From positions 1 through 38,488 of the forward strand of contig CADACC010000010.1 of the NCBI GenBank assembly GCA_902786275.1: a stretch of 38,488 nucleotides of DNA. The letters run 5' to 3'. The translations under genes were made by a program, and so were the position numbers. A model generated the notes under the pieces. It was not told where the DNA came from and ran no database searches. It saw only the letters and a program-made list of their open reading frames with translations. Positions within the stretch are counted from its first letter, which is position 1. Every line of letters begins with the position of its first letter. This DNA comes from an uncultured Erysipelotrichaceae bacterium (GTDB lineage: Bacteria; Bacillota_I; Bacilli_A; RF39; UBA660). This document shows positions 2,728-6,751 of this stretch, piece after piece.

Positions 2728-2746
2728 TAAATAGAGGTGTTTATTT

Positions 2747-3916
2747 ATGTATAGACCTACATATATAAAAGTGGATGGTAATGTAATTGAAAATAATGTT
2801 AGAAACATTATTTCTAATTATAGTGGATATAAATATTACTTTGGAGTTGTAAAAAATAATTCATATCATCATGGTATTTATTCAATTAAGTATTTAATAA
2901 ATGCTGGTATTAATTATCTAGCTGTGTCTTCTTTAGAAGAAGCTATAGCAATAAGAGAATATAATACAGAGATCCCAATTCTTTGTTTGGAACCGATTGA
3001 GTCTGAGTTTATTTTTGATGCAATTAACAATAACGTTACGATTACAATAGGATCATTAGACGAAGCAAAAAGCATAGAGGCATTAAAACTAACTGATACA
3101 TTAAAAGTTCACATGAAAGTTGATTCTGGCATGAATAGATTGGGTTTTAAGGATAAGAATAGTTTTAAAGATGCTTTTGATTTGTTATCTAATTTAAAAA
3201 AAGTTGATGTTGAAGGAGTTTATACCCATCTTGCAACTTCCGGCATATTTGATAAGCATTATAATGATCAAGTTGAGAATTTTAAGATGATTACAAGCTT
3301 GGTAGATTTATCTTTGTTTAAAATTGTTCATGTCGATAGGTCATTAACTCTTGTAGTACATGATAAACTTGATTTTGTTAATGGTACAAGACTTGGTATA
3401 TGCATGTACGGATTTGCGCAAAATATACCTAAAGGTGGTTTATTAACAAATTTTAAAAGAAGATATTTTCAAAACAAATATTCTATTAAAAATATTCATT
3501 TAACTAATAATCTTAACTTAAAATATGCTCTTTCAATGTATTCAAAAGTAATGGAAGTACGTAACGTTAAAAAAGGTGAATTCGTTGGCTACGGCGCCAA
3601 TTTTGTTGCAAAAGATGATATTGTGATTGCAACTATTCCTGCTGGATATGCTGATGGAGTGACTATGGATTTTAAATATGTATATATAAACAATAATAGA
3701 TATGATATTGTTGCTGAGTGTATGGATATGATTATGGTAAAAGTTAATGATGATATAAAAGTTGGCGATACTGTTGAAATAGTAGGTGATAATCAAAATG
3801 TAAAATATTTAGCATCTAGATTAAATTTGGTTGGTCATAAGTTTTTATCATTATTTACAAATAGAGTTCCAATTGTTTATACATATAATGGAGAAACTAG
3901 AGAAATAAAGTATTAG
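2747..3916 (+). CDS. PLP-dependent amino-acid racemase, alanine-racemase fold, substrate uncertain
   Basis: A 389-residue fold type III racemase. The PLP lysine is K36 in FGVVKNNSYHHG. HMKVDSGMNRLGF carries the Lys and Arg that in alanine racemase sit near the PLP and carboxylate. The second catalytic base is the Tyr of VGYGANF, and RLGICMYG and CMDMIMV are also present. Several usual alanine-racemase residues differ: the PLP-phosphate motif H-x-x-N-S reads HVDRS, and the Tyr that follows the conserved loop, nine residues before RVP (Y354 of the Geobacillus enzyme), is His here. This suggests a substrate other than, or in addition to, alanine. RBS AGAGGTG precedes the ATG. The ATP-grasp ligase starts 12 bp after the stop, so the two are surely co-transcribed. 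It could still be the cell's only alanine racemase. Confidence 0.82.
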   Translation: MYRPTYIKVDGNVIENNVRNIISNYSGYKYYFGVVKNNSYHHGIYSIKYLINAGINYLAVSSLEEAIAIREYNTEIPILCLEPIESEFIFDAINNNVTITIGSLDEAKSIEALKLTDTLKVHMKVDSGMNRLGFKDKNSFKDAFDLLSNLKKVDVEGVYTHLATSGIFDKHYNDQVENFKMITSLVDLSLFKIVHVDRSLTLVVHDKLDFVNGTRLGICMYGFAQNIPKGGLLTNFKRRYFQNKYSIKNIHLTNNLNLKYALSMYSKVMEVRNVKKGEFVGYGANFVAKDDIVIATIPAGYADGVTMDFKYVYINNNRYDIVAECMDMIMVKVNDDIKVGDTVEIVGDNQNVKYLASRLNLVGHKFLSLFTNRVPIVYTYNGETREIKY

Positions 3917-3928
3917 GAGGATTTGAGT

Positions 3929-5137
3929 ATGGATTTTGAAGTACTTATTATTGGTAGTGATGTTAATGCATATTATATGGCTAGATGTACTCATGAAGCA
4001 TATAATAAAAAAGCGTACATGTTAATAAAAGATAATCTAGCTTTTACAAAACATTCAAAAATTATCAATAGAATTTATAATGATAAAATTTGGGATGAGA
4101 ATTGTTTTATATCAGCAGTTAATGAATTTTTAATGAAACATGCAGACAAGAAAGTCGTTGTTATTTCATCTAATGAAACTTATGCAGAGTTTCTTGTGCG
4201 TAATAAATCAAGATTTAAGAGTAATATACTATTTAATTATCCTGATATGGATATCCTTACATCACTTACTAATAAAGAGTTATTTTACAAAACATATAAA
4301 TCTTCGATTCTTAATTTTCCTAAAACAATTTATTTTGATTTAAAATCTTCATCTCTTGATGATGTTAAACTTGATTTTCCTGTTGTAATTAAACCTGCTA
4401 ATGTAGTTCTTTATAATCACGTCTCTTTTAAGGGTAAGAAGAAAATTTATAAAGTGTTTGATCAGGAAGAACTTAAAGATGTTATTAATTCTATTAAATC
4501 TTCACAATATAATGATACAGTTATTTTACAGGAATATATTCCTGGTGATGACTCACATTTATTTGATTCTGTTGTGTATTGCGACAAAAATGGGAAAGTT
4601 GATTTGATTTCTTTTGCGCAAATAGGATTACAAGAGCATAAACCAAGCATGGTTGGAAATGCTGCAGTGTTAATAAACGGTTATAATACTTTTGGTGTTG
4701 ATAATTCCGAGATGATTTCAAGTATTAAGTCTTTTATGGAGACCATCGGATATAAAGGTTTTGCTGAGTTTGATTTAAAGTATGATCATCGAGATCATAA
4801 ATTTAAGGTATTAGAGATTAATGCAAGGCAGGGAAGATGTAGTTACTATATAAGTAAAGCAGGGTATAATCTTGTAAAAATATTGGTTGATGATTTAATT
4901 AACAATGAAAGATTAGATTACACTATAGTTGATAAAAAGGTTATGTTATCATTTGTAAATAAGTCGATTATTAAAAAATACATTGTTAATCAAGAATTTA
5001 AAAAAGAGGCTCTTAAAATGTATAAAGATGCTGTAAATCCTTTAAAATATGAAAAAGATTTTTCAATATTTAGAGAATTGTTATATATTAAAAGGGATAA
5101 AAATTATAATAAGTCTTATAGGAATTATAATTGGTAA
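3929..5137 (+). CDS. ATP-grasp ligase, D-aspartate-ligase-like, probable peptidoglycan branch enzyme
   Basis: A 402-residue ATP-grasp enzyme. The N-terminal region (VLIIGSDVNAYYMARCTHEAY) is a Rossmann-like pre-ATP-grasp domain. The ATP-grasp core has FPVVIKPAN (ATP-binding Lys), ILQEYIPGDDSH, the FAQIGLQEH strand, and the metal-ligand end GFAEFDLKYD...FKVLEINARQGR. The length and the PGDD and GLQEH-type motifs resemble, from memory, enterococcal D-aspartate ligase (Asl-fm), which adds D-Asp to the peptidoglycan stem lysine and is encoded beside a racemase. I infer that this enzyme uses the D-amino acid made by the upstream racemase; the substrate is not proven. A TTG at 3923 is only 2 bp from the AGGAGG at 3915-3920, so the ATG at 3929, 8 bp downstream, is the start. 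Confidence 0.75.
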   Translation: MDFEVLIIGSDVNAYYMARCTHEAYNKKAYMLIKDNLAFTKHSKIINRIYNDKIWDENCFISAVNEFLMKHADKKVVVISSNETYAEFLVRNKSRFKSNILFNYPDMDILTSLTNKELFYKTYKSSILNFPKTIYFDLKSSSLDDVKLDFPVVIKPANVVLYNHVSFKGKKKIYKVFDQEELKDVINSIKSSQYNDTVILQEYIPGDDSHLFDSVVYCDKNGKVDLISFAQIGLQEHKPSMVGNAAVLINGYNTFGVDNSEMISSIKSFMETIGYKGFAEFDLKYDHRDHKFKVLEINARQGRCSYYISKAGYNLVKILVDDLINNERLDYTIVDKKVMLSFVNKSIIKKYIVNQEFKKEALKMYKDAVNPLKYEKDFSIFRELLYIKRDKNYNKSYRNYNW

Positions 5138-5233: not shown

Positions 5234-5310
5234 GGGCGTTTAGCTCAGTTGGTTAGAGCACTTGCCTTACAAGCAAGGGGTCATAGGTTCGAGTCCTATA
5301 ACGCCCACCA
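5234..5310 (+). tRNA. tRNA-Val(TAC)
   Basis: 77 nt, acceptor GGGCGTT/AACGCCC, encoded CCA. The anticodon loop CTTACAA gives TAC. Confidence 0.95.
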
Positions 5311-5317
5311 TTTTTTT

Positions 5318-5393
5318 GCCGACTTAGCGTAATTGGTAGCGCAACTGACTTGTAATCAGTAGGTTGGGGGTTCGATTCCCTCAGTCGGCACCA
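5318..5393 (+). tRNA. tRNA-Thr(TGT)
   Basis: 76 nt, acceptor GCCGACT/AGTCGGC, encoded CCA. The anticodon loop CTTGTAA gives TGT. Confidence 0.95.
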
Positions 5394-5398
5394 CTTTT

Positions 5399-5482
5399 GG
5401 AGGGTTAGCGAAGTGGTCAAACGCGGCAGACTGTAAATCTGTTCCTTCGGGTTCTATGGTTCAAATCCATAACCCTCCACCA
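5399..5482 (+). tRNA. tRNA-Tyr(GTA)
   Basis: 84-nt class II tRNA with a long variable arm closed by TTCG, encoded CCA. The anticodon loop CTGTAAA gives GTA. Confidence 0.95.
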
Positions 5483-5490
5483 CTTTTTAA

Positions 5491-5566
5491 TGCCTCGTAG
5501 CCAAGTGGTAAGGCATCAGACTTTGACTCTGACATTCCGAAGGTTCGAGTCCTTCCGAGGCAACCA
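5491..5566 (+). tRNA. tRNA-Gln(TTG)
   Basis: 76 nt, acceptor TGCCTCG/CGAGGCA, encoded CCA. The anticodon loop CTTTGAC gives TTG. The 5' base T pairing with A is usual for tRNA-Gln. Confidence 0.95.
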
Positions 5567-5572
5567 TCTTAT

Positions 5573-5648
5573 GTCCCGTTAGCTCAGCTGGTAGAGCATT
5601 TGACTTTTAATCAAAGGGTCCCGAGTTCGAATCTCGGGCGGGACACCA
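5573..5648 (+). tRNA. tRNA-Lys(TTT)
   Basis: 76 nt, acceptor starting GTCCCG, encoded CCA. The anticodon loop CTTTTAA gives TTT. Last gene of the five-tRNA operon. Confidence 0.95.
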
Positions 5649-5659
5649 TTTTATTTGTT

Positions 5660-5683
5660 AAAAAAGCTGAAAAGCTTTTTTTT
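5660..5683 (+). terminator. terminator of the five-tRNA operon
   Basis: AAAAAAGCT/AGCTTTTTT stem with a GAAA tetraloop and a T-run. Confidence 0.85.
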
Positions 5684-5692
5684 AATATATTA

Positions 5693-5721
5693 TTGCATTT
5701 TTATTGGTAATATAATATAAT
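5693..5721 (+). promoter_or_regulatory. promoter of the Arg-Pro tRNA pair
   Basis: TTGCAT (5693-5698) and TATAAT (5716-5721) are 17 bp apart, 26 bp upstream of tRNA-Arg. It starts just after the preceding terminator. Confidence 0.78.
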
Positions 5722-5747
5722 GAATATGCGTGAAAAAAACGTAATTC

Positions 5748-5824
5748 GCGCTCTTAGCTCAATTGGATAGAGCGTTAGACTACGGATCTAAAGGTTAGGG
5801 GTTCGACTCCCTTAGGGCGCACCA
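5748..5824 (+). tRNA. tRNA-Arg(ACG)
   Basis: 77 nt, acceptor starting GCGCTCT, encoded CCA. The anticodon loop CTACGGA gives ACG, which needs A34-to-inosine editing (TadA) to read CGC and CGA. Confidence 0.94.
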
Positions 5825-5831
5825 TTATTTT

Positions 5832-5908
5832 CGAGAAGTAGCACAGCTTGGTAGTGCACTTGGTTTGGGACCAAGGGGTCGCAGGTTCGAATCCTGTCTT
5901 CTCGACCA
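5832..5908 (+). tRNA. tRNA-Pro(TGG)
   Basis: 77 nt, acceptor CGAGAAG with its 3' partner CTTCTCG, encoded CCA. The anticodon loop TTTGGGA gives TGG. Confidence 0.94.
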
Positions 5909-5956: not shown

Positions 5957-6691
5957 CTAATTATACTTATTGCATAATCTATGTAGATTTCTAAACTCAA
6001 TTCTAAAAGATGTTCCGTGGTCCGAAAATTTTCCTATATATTTACCACTTTTATGTACACCAGTTTTAAATGTAACATTTATAATTCCATTTTCAACCAA
6101 TTTAATAAATTCTTCAAAACTCTTAAGTTCATACATATATATTTTTTCATATTTGTAATAATATGTATTATTAATGATTTTTTTATCAAACGTTATAACA
6201 GCTATTTTTGAATCTTTTCTTACCAATTTATCATTTAACGTGTCAAAGTCCCAGTATATGTCATTGTTAATCAATTTATCATTATTATATATGTTTAATT
6301 CAAGCCTTTTTTTTATGTTGTTAATACTTAATTTATATAAATATTTATACCCAACCTTGCACATCTTATTACCATATATTGTTCCCTTAAAAACTTTTAT
6401 GTTTTTGAAATCACGGTCTGGGTAACCGAAATGTTCTGAAATCCATTGTGCAGCTGGAAAATGAATGCCATCAGGAGCACTATTAAATAATTCAATAGTA
6501 GCATCCCTATGTTTATAAACCGACTTTATTTCTATATCCATAAAGTCCGGTATGTTAAAGTCACCACCTGTTGAACCAAGCTCGCTTTCTAATGTTAATC
6601 CTGCACCATTTTTATAATTGTTGATTGATTTTATGTACCCTTTATTCTTTATTTTTTCAAATTCTTTTTGAAGTATATTAAATGAATTCAT
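5957..6691 (-). CDS. MvaI/BcnI-family (MutH-related) restriction-type endonuclease, no methylase nearby
   Basis: A 244-residue protein. Its N-terminal third has the PD-(D/E)XK active-site pattern of the MvaI/BcnI family: GAGLTLESELG (E35), then IPDFMDIEIKS with D49 and the E54-x-K56 pair. A small hydrophobic and basic beta-rich remainder follows, ending in a GKFSDHGTSFRIEFR strand pair. Family members are monomeric type II enzymes that nick or cut short sites and are structurally close to MutH. No methyltransferase lies within the window, so it may be a remnant restriction enzyme, a mismatch-repair-type nickase, or rely on a distant methylase. An upstream in-frame TTG at 6706 is rejected because the AAAGGAG Shine-Dalgarno lies between it and the ATG at 6691. 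The gene sits directly after a tRNA array, a common insertion site. Confidence 0.75.
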   Translation of the reverse strand: MNSFNILQKEFEKIKNKGYIKSINNYKNGAGLTLESELGSTGGDFNIPDFMDIEIKSVYKHRDATIELFNSAPDGIHFPAAQWISEHFGYPDRDFKNIKVFKGTIYGNKMCKVGYKYLYKLSINNIKKRLELNIYNNDKLINNDIYWDFDTLNDKLVRKDSKIAVITFDKKIINNTYYYKYEKIYMYELKSFEEFIKLVENGIINVTFKTGVHKSGKYIGKFSDHGTSFRIEFRNLHRLCNKYN

Positions 6692-6751
6692 ATTTTCTCC
6701 TTTCAATAATAATATTACCTAAAAGTTTCTGATTTCCTTTTTTTTCGAGTA

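Follow-up and report, generated by a model that had tools for sequence, protein, structure and literature searches.

We describe a two-gene unit in which a racemase of the alanine-racemase fold (PLP fold type III) is followed directly by an AslA-type ATP-grasp ligase, and which is probably an operon for a D-amino-acid branch of peptidoglycan, with the fold-type-III enzyme replacing RacD and D-Asp as its most likely substrate. The pair lies on a 38,488-nucleotide stretch of DNA (hereafter, the window) from an uncultured Erysipelotrichaceae bacterium of the gut. The bacterium is of Bacilli type, with a small genome of 1.10 Mb (89.6% complete), and the closest relatives that bear a name are metagenome assemblies of Bacilli/Tenericutes, including some from goat rectum and cecum. 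The comparison set comprised 386 genomes of the host's family, 80 of which carry the ligase; G000 denotes the host genome and G001-G004 its genus-mates. Gene content of the host genome is given as found by family-profile searches, which diverged genes could escape.

The pathway envisaged follows that of Lactococcus lactis, where racD and aslA share one operon, AslA adds D-Asp to the Lys of the precursor and AsnH then amidates the D-Asp (PMC4155827). For the host organism we infer substrate, acceptor and chemistry as follows. The racemase would convert an L-amino acid, most likely L-aspartate, to its D form, using PLP on Lys36 and a Lys/Tyr two-base mechanism. The ligase would use ATP to activate the side-chain carboxylate of D-Asp and join it to the stem-peptide diamino acid of a cytoplasmic precursor, at the amino group left free on that residue's side chain, and the product would be a side chain for a D-Asp cross-bridge, or for D-Asn after AsnH-type amidation. 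In the host lineage, an Alr-fold racemase would take the place of RacD.

The two genes are a real two-gene unit (Table 1). The sequence-only reading of this DNA had reported a fold type III racemase and an ATP-grasp ligase 12 bp apart, and the open reading frames, the PF01168 and PF00842 matches and the gap (3917-3928) between the racemase stop codon (3914-3916) and the ligase ATG all agree with it. An in-frame TTG at 3923 had been listed as the ligase start; the relatives begin at the ATG (3929).

Table 1. Features of the racemase-ligase pair, in window coordinates
Feature	Position	Strand	Basis
Ribosome-binding site of racemase gene (AGAGGTG)	2733..2739	+	sequence read
Alanine-racemase-fold (PLP fold type III) racemase, 389 aa	2747..3916	+	PF01168 E 5e-44, PF00842 E 2e-28
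Codon of Arg198, Asn203 position	3338..3340	+	alignment (HVDRS)
Lys/Arg-rich insertion of ~30 residues between barrel and C-terminal domain	3422..3517 (approximate)	+	alignment
Codon of Asn372, Tyr354 position (alanine specificity)	3860..3862	+	alignment (FTNRVP)
Ribosome-binding site of ligase gene (AGGAGG), overlapping racemase stop	3915..3920	+	sequence read
Putative AslA-type ATP-grasp ligase (D-aspartate ligase family, carboxylate--amine ligase), 402 aa	3929..5137	+	homology, context, model
Predicted ATP-grasp metal-binding residues Asp282, Glu296, Asn298	4772..4822	+	invariant from window to Peptoniphilus (alignment)

General family models place the ligase loosely: Pfam yields weak ATP-grasp matches, NCBIfam holds no specific ligase model for it (the best, PRK12767, scores 53 bits vs a cut-off of 218) and a sequence search of the PDB returned no match. 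The AF2 model (pLDDT 76.9) has a clear ATP-grasp fold, with the L-amino acid ligase 3vot as best PDB match (E 1.8e-14, TM ~0.6). A tblastn search of plasmid records recovered 'carboxylate--amine ligases' of Lactobacillus (L. crispatus, L. fermentum, L. curvatus) at 28-32% identity over 99% of the ligase length, with E-values down to 5e-58, and no named Enterococcus or Lactococcus AslA was found in these records. Profile A1, a ligase profile built without lactobacilli, scores the Lactobacillus ligases at 323-346 bits. In L. curvatus the ligase gene comes after aspS and an amino-acid racemase gene whose product scores 238.7 bits vs the TIGR00035 asp_race cut-off of 93.1, and in L. crispatus it comes directly after asnB. 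The earlier description of the ligase as D-aspartate-ligase-like is thus upheld, in that it falls with the Lactobacillus AslA-type enzymes; homology and gene context make it a putative member of the AslA (D-Asp ligase) family.

Solitary full-length homologues of the ligase, at 30-31% identity, occur in Peptoniphilus (loci L043-L045) with neither a racemase nor an asnB neighbour. The cross-bridge of that genus is Orn-D-Glu, and these homologues are candidate ligases for it.

Across the host's family, the window-type ligases form a single clade in the ligase tree (clade A; n=52, support 100). An Alr-fold racemase gene lies at most three genes upstream of 48 of these 52 ligases, in almost every case as the immediate neighbour. 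Over the family as a whole, the racemase and ligase genes stand side by side at ~47 places, which is more than chance would give. AsnB/AsnH-type genes lie within three genes of the ligase at 32 of the 52 clade-A loci, and most or nearly all of the operon AsnB proteins cluster together, near the AsnB of L. crispatus. Further neighbours in relatives include FemAB (four loci), MurT/GatD (near two), a SpoVB/MurJ-like flippase gene that overlaps the ligase gene by 4 bp in G024 and, upstream in G380, a MraY-like protein; together with asnB/asnH, they point to a role in peptidoglycan. The suggestion of a D-amino-acid pathway in the sequence-only reading gains from these data, as the pair behaves as one evolutionary unit among cell-wall genes. 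Its description of the substrate as unknown was too agnostic, D-Asp being the best candidate, and nothing suggests the soluble dipeptide that it offered as an alternative product.

Outside clade A, a RacD-type racemase (PF01177, TIGR00035) follows eight ligases of the family, as well as one from another family, and two of these RacD-linked ligases are also followed by AsnB; many other ligases outside the clade have neither racemase. Among the family loci read, none had both kinds of racemase beside one ligase. The host genome yielded no match to PF01177 and has the PLP enzyme beside the ligase instead. An Alr-fold racemase hence occupies the place of RacD within one bacterial family, which extends the earlier remark, made against the enterococcal arrangement, that a PLP enzyme stands here in place of a cofactor-independent aspartate racemase. 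With the ligase tree rooted at its midpoint, replacement of the RacD type by the Alr-fold enzyme is the likely direction of change.

All 47 full-length linked racemases fall inside one clade of 63 sequences (support 99; tree of 148 sequences), whose sister group consists of 38 ordinary, unlinked Alr of ~355 aa from the host's family. Residues are numbered here as in Bacillus stearothermophilus Alr unless window numbers are stated, and their roles were assigned by alignment to published structures, the single-sequence model reaching a pLDDT of only 41. The linked clade conserves Lys39, Tyr43, Arg136, Ser204, Arg219 and Tyr265 (in the window racemase, Lys36, Tyr40, Arg131, Ser199, Arg215 and, for Tyr265', Tyr282); with these catalytic residues kept, its members should be working two-base PLP racemases.

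The entryway to the active site has been remodelled in the linked clade. Tyr354 and Asp171 belong to the entryway residues by which specificity for alanine is controlled (PMC3146814, PMC3485190). Position 354 of the clade is occupied by Asn, Asp, Lys, Thr or Ser, with Tyr never among the common residues; Asp171 is replaced by Gly in 92% of members and is acidic in 0%; and Cys311 and Asp313, which 100% and 97% of the sister group possess, are down to 33% and 60%. The window racemase departs from the alanine-specific entryway set (Tyr354, Tyr284', Asp171 and Arg290'; PMC3146814), with Asn372, Gly166 and Met307 at the positions of Tyr354, Asp171 and Arg290' and with Tyr284' kept as Tyr301. Ordinary Alr of the family vary at position 354 too, so this departure weakens the case for alanine activity without excluding it. 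The sequence-only reading had put a His at the active-site Tyr near RVP, which is a misalignment: the equivalent of Tyr354 is Asn372, and the His, which lies in VGHKF, matches a different Tyr in the C-terminal domain.

The same reading had also noted the loss of the Asn in the PLP-phosphate motif. Arg198 does take its place in HVDRS, and the loss as such is not diagnostic, since ordinary Alr of the family lack Asn203 as well (Ala in 82%); we accordingly rejected it as a specificity marker. What is specific to the clade is the gain of a basic residue, Arg or Lys at this position being present in 76% of members and in 0% of the sister Alr (38 sequences) and of the remaining Alr (39 sequences). 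The insertion between barrel and C-terminal domain, with a mean net charge of about +7 in the linked clade, is absent from the sister Alr and could bind the membrane, the ligase or a nucleotide precursor. A substrate path with fewer acidic and more basic residues would suit an acidic substrate.

A few racemases of the clade lack an adjacent AslA-type ligase and have another ATP-grasp gene next to them (L251:3577-4596, L252:3653-4672, L253:115-1137 and L249:3406-4455). The racemases of G209, G051, G237 and G380 are followed by such a different ATP-grasp protein, which in the three tested (G209, G051 and G380) matches PF14397 ('sugar-transfer associated') and may represent a second, unrecognised family of D-amino-acid ligases. 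Window position 198 is Arg or Lys in 37 of the 47 racemases with an AslA-type ligase and Ser in all four with the PF14397-type partner, a hint, coming on the Ser side from one small subclade, that this residue co-varies with the ligase partner.

Several observations count against a D-Asp operon. The window racemase scores 236.8 bits, above the TIGR00492 alanine racemase cut-off of 168, and retains Cys-Met-Asp at positions 311-313. Searches of the host genome found no second PF01168 gene, and the genus-mate G002 retains the racemase without any ligase. Another Alr is somewhat rarer where the linked racemase is present (7 of 64 genomes) than where it is absent (70 of 322; Fisher p=0.059). No asnB/asnH adjoins the window pair; the single AsnB of the host genome differs from the main operon type and belongs to a second one, which ligase-free genus-mates share. 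A basic residue at position 198 is absent from 10 of the 47 linked racemases, and the only MurE found in G000-G004 carries the meso-DAP-like DNPR motif, whereas AslA is known to act on Lys.

Part of this evidence could be accommodated by a racemase of dual or broad specificity that supplies D-Ala to the stem peptide and D-Asp to the branch, a reading that we regard as unlikely. A sole Alr-family gene, in a genome that is small and also carries a Ddl-like gene, would suit it, as would a widened inner layer, with Asn for Tyr354 as in VanT, and Thr or Ala there in lysine-preferring and broad-specificity racemases. The partial depletion of a second Alr hints likewise at partial redundancy, the linked enzyme covering some of the D-Ala requirement. 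The conserved Arg gain and the loss of the entryway Asp, however, suggest specialisation, and genomes with two enzymes exist.

It is less probable still, and in our judgement quite unlikely, that the racemase is an ordinary alanine racemase clustered by chance with a cell-wall ligase that obtains its D-amino acid from uptake or from an unrecognised racemase. The TIGR00492 score, the coexistence of a single PF01168 gene with a Ddl-like gene, the ligase-free G002 and the lower frequency of a second Alr (p=0.059) are what one would expect of such an enzyme. The linked clade is nevertheless separate from the ~355-aa Alr of the family, seven genomes, G020 among them, have both kinds, the alanine entryway residues are changed throughout the clade and, where the Alr-fold racemase is absent, the ligase adjoins a RacD-type one. 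Moreover, PF01168 is absent from 234 of the 386 family genomes (60%), many of them more than 90% complete, and the genus-mate G003 has a Ddl-like gene and no Alr-family gene; the family is thus not dependent on Alr for D-Ala. A sole Alr gene was for this reason rejected as proof of a D-Ala function. The sequence-only reading had held that a branch pathway would be contradicted by a racemase that was the only alr and made D-Ala alone, together with muropeptides free of such a branch: the first part agrees with what was found in the 89.6% complete genome and leaves some probability to a D-Ala role, but the frequency of genomes without any Alr-family gene makes a sole alr a weak test.

A branch built from a D-amino acid other than D-Asp (D-Ser or D-Glu, for example), with a shift in ligase specificity, we consider very unlikely. 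Asn at the position of Tyr354 recalls the VanT serine racemase, the distant Peptoniphilus homologues (30-31%) belong to a genus with an Orn-D-Glu cross-bridge, and searches of the host genus (G000-G004) for MurI (PF01177/TIGR00067) and Dat (PF01063), either of which would account for its D-Glu, returned no match. Against this, the RacD/AslA/AsnH context points to Asp, and D-Glu is needed by every wall-bearing member of the family, yet the racemase is present in 64 of 386 genomes. Asn at position 354 is also found in ordinary family Alr and in an unlinked clostridial-type Alr, on which ground the serine-racemase reading was demoted; the NCBIfam cut-offs for VanT-G and VanT-CELN lie well above the scores of the window racemase (175 vs 460 and 96 vs 900 bits), and its 389 aa leave no room for the N-terminal membrane domain of VanT. 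That one Alr-fold enzyme of the host genus makes D-Asp for the branch and also supplies the stem with D-Ala and perhaps with D-Glu, there being no MurI or Dat found, seems equally improbable.

The stem peptide of the host genus bears on the proposed D-Asp branch through its diamino acid. MurE is present in the host genome and in G001-G004, and DAP-type walls with bridges of acidic D-amino acids exist (A4gamma). Specificity cannot be read from the MurE motif by itself (PMC3829189). A second MurE, with the motif DDPH, is encoded in G020 and other relatives, and tandem MurE-like genes, one DDPH and one DNPR, were seen at loci L310, L320 and L321 (G020, G010 and G005), which suggests that several genera of the family have two stem-peptide ligases. 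As for D-Glu, it is possible that the missing source is filled by scavenging or by an unrecognised racemase; Chlamydia uses DapF (PMC5885031).

Among characterized systems, the D-Asp operon that we favour most resembles the RacD-AslA-AsnH system of L. lactis and lactobacilli (PMC4155827), with which it shares a homologous ATP-grasp ligase, a racemase in the same operon and, in most relatives of the window pair, an adjoining asparagine-synthase-like gene amid cell-wall neighbours. It differs in its PLP fold type III racemase, RacD being cofactor-independent (PF01177), in that no asnH adjoins the window pair, and in the meso-DAP-like motif of the host MurE. With Alr (TIGR00492; 1SFT and relatives), the racemase shares the fold, PLP lysine, catalytic tyrosine, Arg136/Arg219 and phosphate-binding serine; unlike Alr, the linked clade has lost Tyr354 and Asp171, has Arg at the position of Asn203, is relaxed at Cys311/Asp313, bears the basic insertion and sits in an operon with an AslA-type ligase. 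VanT, a membrane-bound serine racemase, has the Alr fold and Asn at the Tyr354 position, whereas the window racemase has no membrane domain and no VanC/VanG-type ligase in its context. The lysine-preferring and broad-specificity racemases Lyr and Bar have an Alr fold in which the inner-layer Tyr is replaced (PMC3485190). They match the window racemase weakly in sequence, prefer basic substrates, and work in the periplasm with no associated ligase.

To our knowledge, no fold-type-III racemase has been shown to act on aspartate, and a literature search showed none. If the proposed pathway holds, evolution has turned a PLP racemase with the alanine racemase fold towards acidic amino acids and put it in place of RacD in an established route of cell-wall synthesis. 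The substrates handled by this classic antibiotic-target fold would then span a wider range, and peptidoglycan of the D-Asp/D-Asn type would be predicted for a large group of gut Bacilli, most of them uncultured. The 63 racemases of the clade, with their two ligase families, provide a natural data set for mapping specificity residues.

Directly downstream of the pair, the window carries seven tRNA genes (Val, Thr, Tyr, Gln, Lys, Arg and Pro; 5234-5908). These are followed on the minus strand by a gene for an MvaI/BcnI-type restriction endonuclease (5957-6706; PF15515, E 1e-37), with no methyltransferase seen among the nearby ORFs examined; the endonuclease is found at the matching place in G001 too.
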